This document shows positions 2,160-40,419 of a DNA stretch of 64,000 bases, piece after piece (the stretch's first letter is position 1; every line of letters starts with the position of its first letter). This stretch comes from Dendrophyllia cribrosa. Lineage: Eukaryota > Cnidaria > Anthozoa > Scleractinia > Dendrophylliidae. The stretch is from positions 2,800,159 to 2,864,158 of the forward strand of contig JAJLRJ010000004.1 of NCBI GenBank assembly GCA_024195265.1, given 5' to 3'. Position numbers and translations under genes: made by a program. The notes under the pieces are model-generated. The model worked only from the letters and a program-made list of their open reading frames with translations, did not search any database and had not been told where the DNA came from.

Positions 2160-2160
2160 T

Positions 2161-2336
2161 AGTGGGGCGGATATGTGCTGGAATTGTTCACTTTCTGTTA
2201 AAAGCATGAAATTTGGCGGAAAGGTAGCTTTTAACGTGTCAATGAAAAGTTGATATAGTGCCTCCACAAAAATTTCATCTGAGCCGAGTTAAGAGGATGT
2301 TTCAAAATGGCCGCCATCTTGAACCGGAAGTGGAAT
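2161..2336. repeat. left terminal inverted repeat of the Academ-like element
   Basis: The outer 18 bp match the other end perfectly. After a poorly matched stretch the inner block (about 2252-2336) aligns again, including gatatagtgcc, a gccgag core and the compact motif CCGCCATCTTGAACCGGAAG. That motif combines a YY1-like (CAAGATGGCGG in reverse) and an ETS-like (CCGGAAGT) sequence. Further CCGGAAGT copies lie inward at about 2498. Confidence 0.8.
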
Positions 2337-2559
2337 CGCAACTTAATATAAAAGCTATAAATATTTGAGTGTTTGTCTTAAAAACGGTAACGTAGGAAGC
2401 ACGTGATCGAGGTTAACTCGAAATTAAATGTTGAGTCCAAAAAACACAAGAGAAATGCAATTAGGTAATAAACTTTAATGAATGCCATATTCAACCGGAA
2501 GTGGCGACGTATCTTGTGTTAAAATAACATTTACTGTCTACCAATAATATTTTGCTTTT

Positions 2560-3245
2560 ACATGTATATTTCTTGTGATACAGTGTCAGATTCTTTTTGT
2601 TACATTTCTTTGAAGAATAAACTGCTTAATTACTGATAGACTAAGAATCTGCAACAGTCTGCAGACATTTTAAATCGCGGTATGCTTTCTCTTCATACTA
2701 GTGTCACTTTTGTAACATACATTCTGTCTATCCTGCCGTTATAACTTTTATGTTAGGTTAATTGATACGTTTCACATATTAACATCCCAAGAACTCACAA
2801 ACGGCAAGTCTAGTAAGAAACATATTAAGTCATTCAAACTTTGAAAGACACTGCTGTTGTAGTACTTATCGGGGCATCTATGATATCCACATCTCTTTAG
2901 TTCGTAACTGGTTGCTATCCTGCGTTTTTTCTTTCTTGTACAGTTTAAGTTACTTTTAGTTTTTCACAAAGAATAAACTGCTTAATTTCTGATTGACTAA
3001 GAATTTGTAAACTGCAAACTGCGACACATTTTAAAGAGCGGTATACATTCTGGCTATCCTGCCGTTAATACTTTAATGTTAGGCTAAAGGATGCATTTGG
3101 CATATAAACATTGAACACTCAGCAGTTCTTCTCAACATATCTACATTAGGAACTCGCAAATGGTAAGTTCAATAAGTAACATACATGTTAGTCATTCAAA
3201 CCGAGGAGTTCATCTGTTGTCACACTCATCAGGACATCTACAGAG
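2560..3245. repeat. internal direct duplication at the 3' end of the transposon gene
   Basis: Two roughly 300-bp direct copies lie next to each other: one from about 2560 to 2890, the other from about 2930 to 3245. Shared blocks are gaataaactgcttaat, gactaagaat, cattttaaa..cggtat, tatcctgccgtta, atgttagg, aactc(g/a)caaa(t/c)gg and gtcattcaaa. The second copy runs into the stop codon and last codons of the gene; the first carries a decayed version of the same coding end (gttgtagtacttatcggggcatct against gttgtcacactcatcaggacatct). The gene end has therefore been duplicated and one copy has degenerated. Confidence 0.7.
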
Positions 3246-6200
3246 GGCCGTGCAGCGCAGAGAAGCCTTCACACAAGAGCACTTCCTTCGGCAGCCTTTC
3301 GTGCAGCCACACCGAACAAGTTCCTGGCAGGAGCCCATCACATCTGGCAGTGACGTCCAGAAAGGCCTCCACAAACCTCCATCTAAGGTCCAACCCCAGT
3401 CTTGTGGACTTGGCAGTGTAGGGTTTGGAGTGAGAGACTGAGCCCAGATGTATCCTGCTTGGAAAACGGCACGTTTGGAATGCTCCAGTAGGGCTGCTCT
3501 TGTTGATGGGATGCTGTCAAACTGTCTGCCCTTCTTTACAAACAGGTGCTTACGTGCGTCATTCACCGTTTTTTCTCCACTTGTCCTCTCATACAGTAAA
3601 ACTACAAAGCGCTCAAGGGTCGCCATGCTCGTTTCGTCGACTTCAGGGGGTGTACTTCCTAAAGTGAGAAAGGCGGTGGTGGCCTCTGGAAAACTGTTCC
3701 ATGCGTCCATTGCTGTCTTCTTTCCTCTTCCAATAAAACACGAGACTGTATCACAGCCAGTGAAGGCGTGAAAAAATGGGAGTGCACTTGAGACTCGAGG
3801 GCCTAGTTTTCTGGAGATTTCATGGGCAGGAATATAGCGAAGGTGTTTGCCTACGCCAAACCCAACCCAAAGTTCCACAACTCTCCCTTGAAGCTCTTCC
3901 AATTTTTCGAAAAAGGCAACGGCCAAAACAAGGACATCAGTGTCAACTGTACGCAGAAGGATCCTGGTATGACCACAAGACACCGCATCCGCTGCATGAA
4001 GAAGCATCCTTGTGTCAGCTTCTTCATGAGTGCAAGGGGCTAGTCTACCAATGTTGTCGCGTGAAATGGGGATGGTGCTCAAGACCTGCTCGCCACAGGT
4101 TGAGATTATCTGCTTCTCGACTTCGATTGATGTTACACTTTGGGCGAGATACTTAAACAGTTCTTCCTTGTTTTTGTCGACCCTTAAGAACTCTTTCCAG
4201 TTGCGCGGAAGCTTGTTTTCAGCTGCTACACGTTGTCGCACACCAGAACCACGCTGACATCGAGTTGTCAATTTCAGGCTATTCTCTAGGTATTCATCCC
4301 ACACAATATCTAGTCGGTTGACGTGGTTAAGTTGTGCTCTGATGTATGGAATGAAAGAATCTAGAGAATACCCTGAAAAAGTTCGTTCATTTCCGGGTTG
4401 GATCATATTTACAACTGCCGCTCCATCGATGATAAGGGCGTCTAAATTCTTTGGCATCTGGCTTTGTGGTGAAGTGAGTGCTTGAAGGTGTTCCGTCAGC
4501 TCCGACTTCTTCTTTGGAAGACGCAGATTCCCCTGGTCTGATAACGCCGGCGGACAGCCTTGGTTGTCGTGCCTGAAAAACTCATTTAGATCACCATTTC
4601 GGGTCTGGCATGAAATATACAGCCTGGAGAAGAGGGAGCAGTCTCTCTTCATTGAGGTTAACTGCTGGCTTGCTTTTGATGGTTTCTTTGAAGACGTCTC
4701 AAAGAAGCTGATCTTGTTTCTTGGTATGGTGTCACCTAATGGCTTCTTCCTATCAACAAGTCGTTCAGAAATGAACATCTCACACTGCTTTCTTCCTTCA
4801 GATTCAATCTGGCGCATCCTGGCTACTGCTGATTCCTCTGCAACTACCTTGGTGTCAAGTACAATGAGATCACCAGATTCTTCTTGGAAAGGATTTCCCA
4901 TCTCTTCAACAACTGCAACGAGGGATTTGACATCTTGATGGAATGAGGCCTGACAACTTTTGTGATCTTCGTGATGCTTTGAGTTCTCCACTGATTCTGT
5001 GTTAGGATTCATGCCTGCCTCGAACTCATTAACCAGCCTTGCCAACTCTGGGCCAGATAACATCCATCTGCGCAGAGCGTTTGGATTTTCCGTCAAGCCA
5101 ACAGCTCCTCCGTCTCCCTTCACCATGGCATTATTCTGTTCATGTGCTTGGTCGATGGCTATTGCTGAAAATTGCTTTGGCGTTTTGCTCACGGTGAAGA
5201 GCCCTTTCTTGAACTGTGAAGCAACATCTGGAGCCTTCTGATCAAGTTCGCGCATGTCACGTAGATGGATTGGTAGCCAACGAGCATAGTTGCTGTGATT
5301 CATTGCGAAAAGCCATGGTAACATCTTCGAGAGTGCATCAACATAGAGGTGGAAGTCAGCTGCACGAAGCGACTTGAGAAAAACAAGAAGCAGGAGCTCA
5401 AGCTGTAGGGCTGTGTACCAGTACTGAAACTGAGGAAATGCAGAAACTTGCTGAGTACACCAACAGTCAAAGGACATGTCATCTTCGTTGACTACTCCTT
5501 CTTTGTACTTCGCGAACGCCTTCTGGATCAGCAAGAATAAACAGCAGGCTGTCACCTGATGGGCCCGACGGGAACGCGTGACACTTGAAGCTTTGACAAA
5601 GGAGTCTGCTGTTCCGGGAGACGCAACGTTTGCATCAGCCAACGCAGTGTTCCATCCACTACCTTCCAGCCATTCTCCTATCACCTTTAGAAACACCATC
5701 TCTATATGCAGGCCACCAAACATAACCACGAACTTATCTTCACCGTAGGTATCGCTCCAGTTCCACTGAATTTCTTTTGCAACAGCAAATAGTGGCTGAT
5801 CGAAGGCGATTACCGGAACTTGTCCAGGATTTAGATGGTTTACAGAGAGCTTGATCACATCCATAGCATGTTTTATCATAGCAATGGACTTGGCTTGATC
5901 AGGGAACAGTGGTAACAAGCCTGATAACGCAGATGAACTGGGCAAGCTGTGTTGCGGGTCACGAGAGTGGAACGCCCCCCAAGAAACTACTTCCTCTTCC
6001 TTCAAGCCCTCCTGATTACATATAACGTTACTGGAATTCTCAAGCCATCTTATCTCATCTTTCAAACCACGATCACAGGATCTTCCGTCAGGTTGTATGT
6101 TTATGTTGGTTGCTGAAACCTGTGGATTCTTGGTTGGGGCAATAACTGGTGCAACTTCAGTATAAGCTTCTGGTAACTCGCGGACTGACTTCGTGTTGGC

Positions 6201-7775
6201 TGCTGCATGTGATATATCAATAGGTGCTCTTGTTGTTCCAGGGTTTTCTGCAGTGGGTTGCTGAAATAAAGATATGCCAGTCCCATGAAATGAGTCTTGT
6301 GCGGTTGTTGAAGAGGGATTATGGTCAATATTGTCGACAGCCGCCGTTGTAAATAAATGTAGGCGAAGATTGGATGGACATACTGCACCTTCTTCTATGT
6401 AGTGTCGGCAAACTTCGTTCCCCAGATCTGTGGAAATCGCCAACACTCTGTCATAAGAAACACTGATCCCTAGGTCGTGTAATGACTCAACAAGCTCACG
6501 GCTGCGTGTCTTAGCGTGAACAGATACTCCTATGTATATAGGAAGGGGTGTCTCACGAAATTTGCTTCTCCGCTCCCTCTTTACTTCTCTGTCACGACAA
6601 CGAACACGGGTGTTGTACTGCAGAAGCTGTGAGATGGTAAGTGCTGCTTGTACTTTTCCTGAACTACATGCCTGTTCGTCAATATTTGGACCATACAGGA
6701 TCATCTTAACAAGAGACATCAGTGAAGCTGGGACAGATTCTGCCTGGCAGTTAGGCTCAAAGGATCCTGCAAAGGTGTATTTACTTGCAAGCATATCTTT
6801 ACGGACAATCGCAGCTGTCTTGGCAAGGTGCATGGCCTCTTCATCGCAGTCTTCTTCATGTGCTCTATGTAGTGCAAATCCGACATCAGCACTGAAAGCC
6901 AAGTACACATCGCGCCCTTCTTTGTAAGCCTGAAGACCAGGAATTTGTAAAACAAGGCGCTCTTTGAGTCGTGAAGTGTTAACACGTGTCACTGCGTCAC
7001 AACCGAGTCTTTGCAAACAGGATTGGTACTTTTTTGCGAGATCGGCAAGTTTAAACGTGGGTAACTCTTCACTACCTGTTCTAAAATCTTCTATGTACGA
7101 CACCAGTTCTGCTAGAGCGATTCCATCGAGACGATGACGGGGCTGTTCGCTCTCTTCGCCCTCTTCCTTTGCATATTGTGCTTTCCTGTACAGCGTAGAA
7201 AGGCATTGAGTATGGTACTTAGCCTCAAGAGCGATGAGATCCCCTCCACTTAACTTTGCCAACAACTTTTCATCGTTAAGAAGTGATGCACATTCCCGTA
7301 CTCTATCATCTAATCCGAGGGTGGATACATTATGAAGAATTCGGTCATCACTCTCTTCGCATATAAAACAGGCAGGAATTGTATTTTGTGCGCAAACAGC
7401 AGCATTTGATCGTGTAAACTTCCCGCCAACTAGGATCTCTTGTTGCGTTGAATGCCTCTTTTCAGCTCTTTTTAGCTTGGTTGAATTGAAAAGGGCATAG
7501 CAACTTCTATGCCAACGTGCCCTGTTTGCCAGAAATGTCTCATCAATTCCTTTGCCTTCGTCTAATCGGGAAAGCGATAATTCTTTTGGCATGCATCCCA
7601 GCTTTGCAAACTTCTCTATGTTGGTTGCCAGGGTTTTGTAGCCTGCTCCCACATCTGGGCGTTTTGTATCAGCAGGACATTGCAATGCCTCACTGGTGAC
7701 ATTTTGGCAAATAGCACAGAGCTGCCAGTTGGTCTTTGGATCAGTTGTTCCTGGTGTTTTACTGCCATAATCCAT
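3210..7775 (-). CDS. Academ-type transposase: zinc fingers, DDE-like core, XPG/FEN1-like nuclease, CXC domain
   Basis: One uninterrupted frame of 1521 residues. N-terminal zinc-binding modules repeat the pattern CxxC...HxxC: C20/C23 with H89/C92, and C136/C139 with H188/C191. A probable RNase H-fold transposase core spans about 640-920 (AFDQPL with D659, FGGLHIEM with H690, DQAHEQNN with D875/E879); the catalytic assignment is tentative. Residues about 1108-1365 read as an XPG/FEN1-type PIN nuclease: LIIDGAA (D1117), DIVWDEY (D1156/D1160), EEADTRM (E1252/D1254), TVDTDVLVL (D1278/D1280), and FTGCDTVSCFIGRGKK (D1342), which matches the GCD and helix-hairpin signature after the XPG I region. The tail (1488-1519) is a cysteine-rich CXC motif (RCGCTKGC, CSCVK, CTALCRCPDEC) of the Tesmin/MSL2 kind, likely DNA-binding. 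The ATG at 7775 is used because it precedes the first CxxC; an AG acceptor-like site lies about 15 bp upstream. No internal stop or frameshift suggests recent activity. Confidence 0.85.
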   Translation of the reverse strand: MDYGSKTPGTTDPKTNWQLCAICQNVTSEALQCPADTKRPDVGAGYKTLATNIEKFAKLGCMPKELSLSRLDEGKGIDETFLANRARWHRSCYALFNSTKLKRAEKRHSTQQEILVGGKFTRSNAAVCAQNTIPACFICEESDDRILHNVSTLGLDDRVRECASLLNDEKLLAKLSGGDLIALEAKYHTQCLSTLYRKAQYAKEEGEESEQPRHRLDGIALAELVSYIEDFRTGSEELPTFKLADLAKKYQSCLQRLGCDAVTRVNTSRLKERLVLQIPGLQAYKEGRDVYLAFSADVGFALHRAHEEDCDEEAMHLAKTAAIVRKDMLASKYTFAGSFEPNCQAESVPASLMSLVKMILYGPNIDEQACSSGKVQAALTISQLLQYNTRVRCRDREVKRERRSKFRETPLPIYIGVSVHAKTRSRELVESLHDLGISVSYDRVLAISTDLGNEVCRHYIEEGAVCPSNLRLHLFTTAAVDNIDHNPSSTTAQDSFHGTGISLFQQPTAENPGTTRAPIDISHAAANTKSVRELPEAYTEVAPVIAPTKNPQVSATNINIQPDGRSCDRGLKDEIRWLENSSNVICNQEGLKEEEVVSWGAFHSRDPQHSLPSSSALSGLLPLFPDQAKSIAMIKHAMDVIKLSVNHLNPGQVPVIAFDQPLFAVAKEIQWNWSDTYGEDKFVVMFGGLHIEMVFLKVIGEWLEGSGWNTALADANVASPGTADSFVKASSVTRSRRAHQVTACCLFLLIQKAFAKYKEGVVNEDDMSFDCWCTQQVSAFPQFQYWYTALQLELLLLVFLKSLRAADFHLYVDALSKMLPWLFAMNHSNYARWLPIHLRDMRELDQKAPDVASQFKKGLFTVSKTPKQFSAIAIDQAHEQNNAMVKGDGGAVGLTENPNALRRWMLSGPELARLVNEFEAGMNPNTESVENSKHHEDHKSCQASFHQDVKSLVAVVEEMGNPFQEESGDLIVLDTKVVAEESAVARMRQIESEGRKQCEMFISERLVDRKKPLGDTIPRNKISFFETSSKKPSKASQQLTSMKRDCSLFSRLYISCQTRNGDLNEFFRHDNQGCPPALSDQGNLRLPKKKSELTEHLQALTSPQSQMPKNLDALIIDGAAVVNMIQPGNERTFSGYSLDSFIPYIRAQLNHVNRLDIVWDEYLENSLKLTTRCQRGSGVRQRVAAENKLPRNWKEFLRVDKNKEELFKYLAQSVTSIEVEKQIISTCGEQVLSTIPISRDNIGRLAPCTHEEADTRMLLHAADAVSCGHTRILLRTVDTDVLVLAVAFFEKLEELQGRVVELWVGFGVGKHLRYIPAHEISRKLGPRVSSALPFFHAFTGCDTVSCFIGRGKKTAMDAWNSFPEATTAFLTLGSTPPEVDETSMATLERFVVLLYERTSGEKTVNDARKHLFVKKGRQFDSIPSTRAALLEHSKRAVFQAGYIWAQSLTPNPTLPSPQDWGWTLDGGLWRPFWTSLPDVMGSCQELVRCGCTKGCRRKCSCVKASLRCTALCRCPDECDNR

Positions 7776-8729
7776 TCAGCTGTCTCACTGAAAATCAATT
7801 TGTTGTTTCTTTATTGTACATTAAAACTATTTATATAAGCCATTGCTATCTAGAAGGCCATGCTATCTCGAGAGTTAATGCATTGTGTATATGATGCAGT
7901 TCTATATCACCTTCAGACTAGGGTGACACCTAAAAATAACAAGCTTCTTGTATATACACAACCCTTTCTTGCATTTGGTGCCTGTATAATAGGCATAACG
8001 TATTAACTCGAGATCACATTTGTACTTAAAAGAATTTATACTTTAAATTTGCGAATAAAAATTCAAGCTACAACAGACTATATTGTCTCACAATAATAAC
8101 AGCTAAAAAAATATAACCTAACAAAAACGTTCAACAACGCGACACTATATTTCCCGGACAAAAATGTCCATTGTATCACATTTTGTTTCGTGGAAACTGA
8201 AGTCCGATCGAGTCATCACTAATTACATTAATCGAGAGCTATGACTGCCATAAAGATGATTTTTTTAAAGAAGATTAACCAGTTGTTATCGTAATGTGTA
8301 TATATCGTGTTTTTCCGCTTAAAAGAAGTGGATACTTACAGTTAGCACGAGAAGTCATAAACATGGCTGAACCAAGATGGCGGGTCTGATGTGCAAATTA
8401 TAAAGCATTCTGGGTAATGCACTGGAGCATTCTGGGTATTTTATCAGTTGCTATGAAATACTCGGTATATCATAAAAACAAAACAACTTCATCATCTTAG
8501 ATAAACATAAAGGCATTCTTGTTACCAGTTGACAACAATATGACTTCCGGTTGAATACAATTTCACTTCCGGTTTGGTAAAATTACTTTTATTTAAGCAT
8601 ACCAGTTGTGTGTAACGTATTATTTTCCGCCATAATTGTTCAGAATATAGGCAAAAATTATTAGGATTCATTTTATTCAACATTGGAACTAGTTAAATTA
8701 GATAAAAAGGCACTTCCGCTTATACTGCA
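7776..8729. other. transposon 5' non-coding region
   Basis: This stretch lies between the transposase start and the right terminal repeat. I see no open frame. It carries several CACTTCCGG or ACTTCCGG sites (8541-8575 and 8712), a YY1-like AAGATGGCGGG at about 8373-8384, and GCATTCTGGGTA twice (about 8404 and 8428). It probably holds the promoter and 5' untranslated region of the transposase gene. Confidence 0.5.
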
Positions 8730-8914
8730 TTTCACTTCCGGTCAAGATGGCGGAAATTTTGGAAAAAGCTGTAAAACTCGCCTAAGCAAAAAATTTTTCG
8801 ATGGCACTATATCAGATATTCACAGGTATAAAAAAATCTATCATTCCTGAAAATATGGTGATTTTAACACCAAATGAATAATTCGGGGAAAATTCTGCAC
8901 ATATCCGCCCCACT
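8730..8914. repeat. right terminal inverted repeat of the Academ-like element
   Basis: This is the inverted partner of 2161-2336. It contains CACTTCCGGTCAAGATGGCGG-type sequence at 8733-8754, with gatatagtgcc in reverse near 8805-8814 and the 18-bp terminal match at 8897-8914. It lies upstream of the transposase gene, so the YY1-like and ETS-like sites could belong to its promoter. Confidence 0.8.
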
Positions 8915-8915
8915 A

Positions 8916-9246
8916 ATATAAAAATTTGGAAAAACCGCAATTACTTTTGACATATGCAAATTGCAACATTTTTACCCGTTTTAACAACACTTCAGCAAAG
9001 TGCAATGTTGTTCTCTCGGCTCGTGAAGATAACTCAAAACATCTGAGGACGAAACTTGTGTTTATATAACTTCTTCGCTTGTCTTGCTGGCGGCGTCGTT
9101 CGCGAAAGGTTAAAACAGTTGACAAGCTTAGAAATACGCAGGTTCTTGTGGGCGGTAGCCGCGATTTGAAGGATGCGTGCGGACCTCCCTTCTTCGTATG
9201 ACCCCGGCGTCTGACTCGACTGGAAGCCGCTAGAAATTTGGCCGCG
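8916..9246. repeat. palindromic repeat, part to the right of the transposon
   Basis: The first 30 bases (aatataaaaatttggaaaa and what follows) continue the right arm of the palindrome that stopped at 2160 and match the complement of about 1855-1890. From about 8945 to 9246 the sequence is different; an open frame on the minus strand (8913-9254) has basic low-complexity composition and I do not accept it as a gene. Confidence 0.6.
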
Positions 9247-9396
9247 CGATACAAACGTCTGTGAAATTTGCCGACTTTAAAAGATATCGCTTTTAAACTC
9301 GTCCACTTTACTAATTCTTGAGATGCTTTTTCAAGCAGTGTCGATGGATTTTTGCTATCAAGCCAATATAAAAATGTAGAAAAACCGTGATAATTA
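9247..9396 (+). repeat. third copy of the palindromic repeat arm (unoccupied site)
   Basis: This copy starts at the same centre (acaaacgtctgtgaaatttg) and reads through tttactaattcttgagatgc, gatggatttttgctatcaag, ccaatataaaaatg and gaaaaaccgtga without interruption. It is one of two related sites in the window that lack the transposon and so define its target duplication. Confidence 0.8.
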
Positions 9397-34069: not shown

Positions 34070-34251
34070 CTCCCGAATAAGCGCCGCACATAACAGCGAA
34101 CAATAAACATGAGTGAAATTTGTTCCCAGCAGTGTGCTATGAACTTAAGCAATTGAAAAAGCAACCTTAAAAAAAATTCAGGCTTGAACGGGACTCGAAC
34201 CCATGACCATGCAATACCGGTGCAATGCTCTATCCACTGAGCTACCAAGCC
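34070..34251 (-). mobile_element. tRNA-derived SINE; 71-nt tRNA-like head (34181-34251)
   Basis: On the minus strand the head reads GGCTTGGTAGCTCAGTGGAT onward and folds as a tRNA: acceptor 7 bp closing with TCAAGCC, D arm GCTC/GAGC, T arm ATGGG-TTCGAGT-CCCGT. Polymerase III boxes A (TAGCTCAGTGG) and B (GGTTCGAGTCC) are intact. The anticodon loop would be CCGGTAT (GGT, threonine), but it has C instead of T at position 33 and a mismatched stem. The body after it (cctgaattttttttaaggtt, tttcaattgcttaagttcat) is one I know behind this head in anthozoan repeats, so I call a SINE and not a working tRNA gene. Confidence 0.7.
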
Positions 34252-36475: not shown

Positions 36476-38277
36476 GGTCAAGGGAGCCACCTTATAAAAG
36501 GGACGGCTCCTCACCTTAAAGAAGAGACGGCTCCTCACCTTACACAAGGGACCGCTTCTTACCTTATACAAGGGACGGCTCCTCACCTTGTACAAGGGAC
36601 GGCTCCTCACCTTATAAGGGACGGCTCCTCACCTTATACAAGGGACGGCTCCTCACCTTATACAAGGGACAGCTTCTTACCTTATACAAGGAACGCCTCC
36701 TCACCTTATACAAGTGACGGCTCCTCACCTTATACAAGGGAAGGCTCCTCGCCTTATACAAGGGACGGCTCCTCACGTTATACAAGGGACGGCTCCTCAC
36801 CTTATTCAAGGGACGGCTTCTTACCTTATACAAGGAACGGCTCCTCACCTTATACAACGGACGGCGCCTCACCTTATGCAAGGGACGGCTCCTCACCTTA
36901 TACAAGGGACGGCTCCTCGCCTTATACAAGGGAAGGCTCCTCGCCTCATACAAGGGACGGCTCCTCACCTTATACAAGGCACAGCTTCTTACCTTATACA
37001 AGGAACGGCTCCTTACCTTATACAAGGGACGGCTCCTCACCTTATACAAGGGACGGCTCCTCGCCTTATACAAGGGAAGGCTCCTCGCCTCATACAAGGG
37101 ACGGCTCCTCACCTTATACAAGGGACAGCTTCTTACCTTATACAAGGAACGGCTCCTCACCTTATACAACGGACGGCTCCTCGCCTTATACAAGGGACGG
37201 CTCCTCGCCTTATACAAGGGACGGCTCCTCACCTTATACAAGGGACAGCTTCTTACCTTATACAAGGAACGGCTCCTCACCGTATACAACGGACGGCTCC
37301 TCACCTTATACAAGGGACGGCTCCTCGCCTTATACAAGGGACGGCTCCTCACCTTATACAAGGGACAGCTTCTTACCTTATACAAGGAACGGCTCCTCAC
37401 CTTATGCAAGGGACGGCTCCTCACCTTATACAAGAGAAGGCTCCTCACCTTATACAAGGGACGGCTTTTCACGTTATATAAGGGACGGCTCCTCACCTTA
37501 TACAAGGGACGGCTCCTCACCTTATACAAGGGACGGCTCCTCACCTTATACAAGTGACGGCTCCTCACCTTATACAAGGGACGGCTCTTCACCTTATACA
37601 AGGGAAGGCTCCTCACCTTATACAAGGGGCGGCTTCTTACCTTATACAAGGGACGGCTCCTCACCTTATACAAGTGACGGCTCCTCACCTTATACAAGGG
37701 ACGGCTCCTCACCTTATACAAGGGACGGCTCCTCACCTTATACAAGGGACGGCTCCTCGTCTTATACAAGGGACGGCTCCTCACCTTATACAAGGGACAG
37801 CTTCTTACCTTATACAAGGGACGGCTCCTCACCTTATACAAGGGACGGCTCCTCGTCTTATACAAGGGACAGCTTGTTACCTTATACAAGGAACGGCTCC
37901 TCACCTTATACAACGGACGGCTCCTCAACTTATACAAGAGACGGCTCCTCACCTTATACAAGGGACGGCCCCTCACCTCATACAAGGGACGGCTTCTCAC
38001 CTTATACAAGGGACAGCTTCTTACCTTATACAAGGGACGGCACCTCACCTTATACAAGGGACGGCTCCTCGTCTTATACAAGGGACCGCTTGTTACCTTA
38101 TACAAGGGACGGCTCCTCACCTTATACAAGGGACGGCTCCTCACCTTATAGAAGGGACGGCTCCTCACCTTATACAACGGACGGTTCCTCGCCTTATACA
38201 AGGGACGGCTCCTCACCTTATACAAGGAACGGCTCCTCACCTTATACAAGGGACGGCTCCTCACCTTATACAAGGGT
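36476..38277 (+). repeat. 1.8-kb minisatellite, 24-bp unit (about 75 copies) with higher-order 120-bp period
   Basis: The unit is GACGGCTCCTCACCTTATAC plus AAGG. Since 24 is a multiple of three and few copies carry stops, long frames stay open in several phases of both strands: DGSSPYTR and TAPHLIQG on plus, SRPLYKVR on minus. At about 37020-37400 a five-unit block repeats every 120 bp: one unit variant with gacagcttcttacc, one with gaacggctcctcacc, one with caacggacgg, then two plain ones. Copies at both edges are more divergent. I regard the open frames as by-products and not as a gene. Confidence 0.9.

Positions 38278-39288: not shown

Positions 39289-40419
<1,131 letters not shown>

Follow-up and report, generated by a model that had tools for sequence, protein, structure and literature searches.

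Insertion site and copies of the element

The stretch of DNA analyzed here (the window) comprises 64,000 nucleotides of contig JAJLRJ010000004.1 of Dendrophyllia cribrosa, and contains a DNA transposon that spans exactly positions 2160-8915 (6756 bp). Its termini, TAGTGGGGCGGATATGTGC at the left end (2160-2178, plus strand) and GCACATATCCGCCCCACTA at the right end (8897-8915, minus strand), are perfect 19-bp inverted repeats, and left and right ends are about 70% similar across roughly 180 bp. The element is flanked by the target-site duplication ATA (2157-2159 and 8916-8918) and carries a transposase gene of 1521 codons in a single open frame on the minus strand (3210-7775). A first-pass annotation made from the sequence alone had reported matched termini and one uninterrupted gene of this length; the gene, whose frame runs from 7775 to 3210, is real and the termini do match, over 19 bases and not the 18 given there.

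The genome searched has 22 contigs that total 627 Mb. Queried with either end of the element, it yielded the same ten places, giving at least ten full-length copies on eight contigs (C1, C2, C3, C12, C17, C19, and two each on C20 and C22). The first-pass annotation had proposed such a search and named the lack of other copies as evidence against its reading; nine others exist. We compared all ten copies together with about 1 kb of flank each. Every one of them starts with TAGTG, ends with CACTA and has an exact 3-bp target duplication (TTA, TAT, GTG, TTT, TGC, TAG, TTG and TTC, and ATA for the window copy and one other), and a 4-bp repeat was found at none. Because of this uniformity the 5-bp alternative AATAT, which the first-pass annotation had offered beside ATA, is rejected as a chance extension at the window site alone, and the 3-bp duplication stands. 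The exact 19-mer terminus occurs 32 times in the genome, as against no occurrence of the reversed control; the ten full copies account for 20 of these, and the other 12 are single ends that belong to relatives.

A 3-bp duplication and a CACTA motif at one terminus are also what an EnSpm/CACTA element would offer. CACTA elements begin with CACTA, however, whereas the motif is reversed here, with TAGTG at the start and CACTA at the end of all ten copies, and no known transposase was matched in Pfam. The orientation of the terminus speaks against this assignment, which we reject and give next to no credence.

The copies differ from their majority by 0.03-0.24%, that is by 2-16 substitutions (4, 16, 5, 9, 11, 12, 4, 2, 5 and 9 for L039 to L048, the last being the window copy), in agreement with the recent movement proposed by the first-pass annotation. 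The 1521-codon frame is whole in six of them (L039, L040, L041, L044, L045 and the window copy). It is broken in the other four, by a stop at codon 588 (L042), a small complex change with a net gain of one base (L043), and insertions or deletions (L046 and L047). L046, counted here as broken, combines 15 single-base insertion or deletion columns, 12 of them within the gene, with only two substitutions, and its insertions and deletions may be assembly errors. Of 61 changes among the copies, 17 are noncoding and 44 coding. The coding ones comprise 17 synonymous changes, 25 replacements and two stops (neutral expectation 30.5, 66.2 and 3.3%), with one synonymous change and one stop being parts of the complex change in L043. 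These proportions are near the neutral expectation: once inserted, the copies drifted freely, as recent insertions would, which is silent on present function. The window copy itself is not pristine, since a change of its own replaces a nearly invariant proline.

Likeness among copies could also arise by gene conversion or segmental duplication of an old, immobile element; intact frames alone are no proof of mobility, and all copies come from a single assembly. Yet the ten copies lie on eight contigs in different flanks, each has its own 3-bp duplication, and the similarity does not extend more than a few bases past the termini. In view of the different flanks we reject both processes as the source of the likeness, and we consider an old immobile element very improbable.

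The element interrupts a fold-back repeat, the main part of which occupies 1865-2159 and the last bases of which resume at 8919 and continue to about 8937. Its arms (1885-1987 and 2059-2161) are 91% complementary. The repeat is dispersed, resembling a miniature inverted-repeat transposable element with long arms (also at L055-L074). Its end has at least 31 other matches in the genome, mostly 97-98% identical over 62 bases. Twenty of these were compared, and all 20 run through the site uninterrupted and without a transposon terminus. The empty site reads exactly AATATAAAAATTTGG in 17 of them and differs by one base in the other three (L055, L061 and L066); taking the element and one ATA out of the window yields the same AATATAAAAATTTGG. 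The claim that related repeats record the empty site is therefore borne out by these 20 copies. Of the two empty relatives that had been named in the window itself, the one near 1885 belongs to the interrupted repeat itself, as its left arm, and the other, an uninterrupted arm at 9251-9390 (plus strand), is independent.

The genome also harbors older relatives, of which we examined four out of 17 such regions (L051-L054). They have the same termini with 0-2 mismatches of 19 and a related but broken gene (tblastn identity 36-72%, depending on the segment), and L051 is internally shortened to 3522 bp. All four are bounded by 3-bp duplications (CAC, TTA, TAA and CTG), so that this length was found in 14 of the 14 elements examined. 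With eight further exact single ends, and one with a single mismatch (L032), they represent older Academ-type families that coexist in this genome and share the 19-bp terminus. Outside the genome, none of 15 pattern stretches in IMG/VR was confirmed as a relative, and two of 42 candidates in GTDB genomes were. Both are distant and lie on small contigs, of a metagenome-assembled genome and of a gill-symbiont assembly, and they are probably eukaryotic contamination. CCCCACTA and TAGTGGGG occur in neither; one site of the CCGGAAGT type is present in L049.

Transposase and subterminal block

A Pfam scan of the whole 1521-codon protein matched no family, and because there was no match at all no helicase was seen. 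Among 18 relatives, five carry the Pfam domain DUF6589, on which a literature search found nothing. Sequence searches of the PDB returned one, two and three weak matches at E values up to 10, none of them meaningful.

Close to the N-terminus lie the residues C20/C23 and C136/C139/H188/C191 (7203-7718, minus strand); the latter four are invariant in 18 sequences, the former two not in all. Judged from sequence, these residues probably form zinc-binding, DNA-binding modules. Residues 330-1050 (4626-6788, minus strand) are predicted to form an RNase-H-like DDE transposase core with a helical insertion, closest to that of the P element. This assignment is based on the predicted fold and on conserved acidic residues, with D481 (or D484), D659 and E879 as the candidate triad; Foldseek by itself gave no significant match for the DDE part. 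The closest relative, P0002 (83%), has Asn at the position of D659, the expected second catalytic Asp. This may mean that the triad assignment is wrong or else that this copy is inactive. Residues 1089-1459 (3399-4511, minus strand) constitute a predicted nuclease domain of the EXO1/FEN1/XPG type, as indicated by the match of the model and by conservation of the acidic residues D1117, D1156, D1160, E1251, E1252, D1254, D1278, D1280 and D1342. The protein ends in a Cys-rich, CXC/tesmin-like tail (3222-3311, minus strand) with eight Cys residues that are invariant in 88 aligned rows. Two relatives carry the name 'Tesmin/TSO1-like CXC', and the Pfam family TCR was matched weakly (E 0.93) in one of 28 cases.

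Besides the termini, the ends share a subterminal block, read as GCCGCCATCTTGAACCGGAAGTG on the left (2310-2332, plus strand) and as TCCGCCATCTTGACCGGAAGTG on the minus strand on the right (8733-8754). We liken its YY1-like and ETS-like parts to the YY1 and ETS/GABPA sites of housekeeping promoters and regard them as putative sites. The motif CCGGAAGT is present five times in the terminal 441 and 515 bases and nowhere else in the window; shuffled sequences contained 0.011 sites on average and none of 2000 shuffles reached five. The YY1-like octamer CCATCTTG occurs three times in the element, two of these within the same terminal stretches, and twice outside it. A block like GCCGCCATCTTG-ACCGGAAGTG is found at offset 150-162 in each of the ten ends examined (five elements), pointing inward at left and right alike. 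It scores 16-22 of 22 at these ends, and none of 200 shuffles per end reached such a score, where the query block was derived from the ends scored and the elements share ancestry, so that the ten ends do not test it independently. In the alignment of the ends the block is, the terminus aside, among the best conserved stretches. Its presence at both ends makes a role in the ends themselves, as a binding site of the transposase or of a host factor, at least as likely as a role as promoter. The block is the closest thing to new in this element; the papers retrieved on subterminal YY1/ETS blocks in transposons, as far as title and opening of the abstract tell, are not pertinent.

Other features of the window

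At the left edge of the window lies an exon of a Tc1/mariner-type transposase (126-481; DDE_3, E 5e-7), with a textbook histone 3' stem-loop 13 bases past its stop. This stem-loop is above the gathering score of Rfam RF00032 (35.7 bits), as are those of L079, L080 (603-1548) and L081 (34.7 bits each). L080 encodes an intact IS1595/ISXO2-type transposase of 293 amino acids (E 6e-26), the C-terminus of which is shared by L079 and L081. At L076, L077, L083, L084 and L085, where the genes are of the Tc1/mariner type by similarity, the stem-loop was identified by motif match only, and L076 and L077 fell below the gathering score when scanned. In the transposase genes the distance from stop to stem-loop is 6-125 nt. 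L086, one of six matches within 24 kb of C5, is a lysine-rich, H1-like gene with the same stem-loop core, and L078 has a transposase match at which a stem-loop was not found. L082 (1504-1549, minus strand) has an Rfam-supported stem-loop with no transposase frame within 150 nt upstream. On the opposite strand of L079 and L082 a second, diverged stem-loop follows a frame of unknown kind. In this genome the stem-loop thus follows transposase genes that belong to two unrelated superfamilies, which suggests that the mRNAs of these transposons have ends of the histone type, linked to S phase. Literature searches on such stem-loops, judged by paper titles, brought up no report of them after transposase genes.

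The window further contains a tRNA gene (34180-34251, minus strand; RF00005, 54.7 bits) and two tandem arrays, one of about 75 copies of a 24-mer (36488-38276) and one of about 310 copies of CTA (39490-40418). The four long open reading frames overlapping these arrays that were scanned gave no Pfam match.

Classification, proposed mechanism and known systems

The AcademX lineage, which is said to have been defined by Kojima in 2020, has a nuclease of the XPG type. One Academ element is designated Academ-1_NV, where we take NV to stand for Nematostella vectensis. According to the excerpt consulted of PMC10045372, duplications measure 3 or 4 bp in AcademX elements, which have a nuclease, and 9 or 10 bp in AcademH elements, which have a helicase. 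Excerpts of PMC9587614 and PMC10294476 count Academ among the DDE superfamilies, and the latter reports 100 curated bivalve Academ elements. AcademX, known to us by this description, is like the present element in the 3-bp duplication (all 14 elements), the predicted nuclease and the predicted DDE domain; the excerpted description makes no mention of a subterminal block. AcademH, of the same superfamily, differs in its helicase and its longer duplication, and is ruled out by the 3-bp duplication and by the absence of any helicase family among the Pfam matches.

A separate superfamily, in which a DDE core and a flap-type nuclease were joined independently, would agree with the lack of a Pfam model for the protein (DUF6589 in some relatives apart) and with the fact that the resemblance to AcademX rests on described features and not on a named Academ entry. 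Against it, a nuclease together with 3- or 4-bp duplications fits the published AcademX (PMC10045372, excerpt). Moreover, Academ-1_NV is named in print (PMC9004415, excerpt) and the transposase shares 53% identity with a Nematostella protein, this protein and Academ-1_NV being candidates only for the same family. We regard an independent origin as unlikely. The Academ-like nature proposed by the first-pass annotation gains from the uniform 3-bp duplications, the predicted DDE core and XPG/FEN1-type nuclease, and a protein in which no helicase was seen. We are thus confident that the element is complete, has moved recently and belongs to the AcademX kind of cut-and-paste DNA transposons, probably as an autonomous member. 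With AcademX compared by description only, it is best classed as a new, well-preserved and probably recently active family in a known, little-studied transposon group.

Its defined ends, the settled 3-bp duplication and the open frame in six copies make it material for asking experimentally why a DDE transposase carries a flap-type nuclease. Such nucleases have relatives whose substrates are 5' ends or branched DNA. In a possible pathway, the Cys-rich modules of the protein would bind the 19-bp termini and perhaps also the subterminal blocks, after which the DDE core would cut the transferred strands and join their 3' ends to the target with a 3-bp stagger. The fused nuclease would act at excision by cutting or trimming the other (5') strand, or else would do so on the 5' flaps that strand transfer leaves behind, and host repair would fill the 3-nt gaps. 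Alternatively, the nuclease may serve in trimming after integration or in processing of the excision site. We tentatively propose that the AcademX transposase chain holds its own second-strand nuclease, in analogy to TnsA/TnsB but within a single eukaryotic protein, and that the conserved YY1-ETS-like module about 150-185 bp inside both ends either anchors the transposase or borrows host housekeeping transcription factors for expression and end pairing; this whole is a conjecture that we would not favor over its alternatives. The block is a concrete, testable addition.

An RNase-H-like core broken by a helical insertion, as predicted here, is also found in the P element, Hermes (hAT), RAG1 and Transib, to which the aligned parts are about 8-12% identical and which have no fused nuclease. 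Duplications in these systems are of 8 or 5 bp, and of 8 bp in P and hAT, in contrast to the 3 bp seen at ten of ten copies, none of which has even a 4-bp match. The nucleases EXO1, FEN1, XPG and XRN1 have the same fold and acidic residues as the predicted nuclease (10-17% identity), which here is a domain of a transposase. In Tn7, finally, a DDE enzyme (TnsB) works with a second nuclease (TnsA), and the division of labor between them is the model for the split between DDE core and nuclease proposed above. TnsA has a restriction-type fold and is a protein on its own, whereas in the present element both activities would reside in one polypeptide and the nuclease would be of the flap type.
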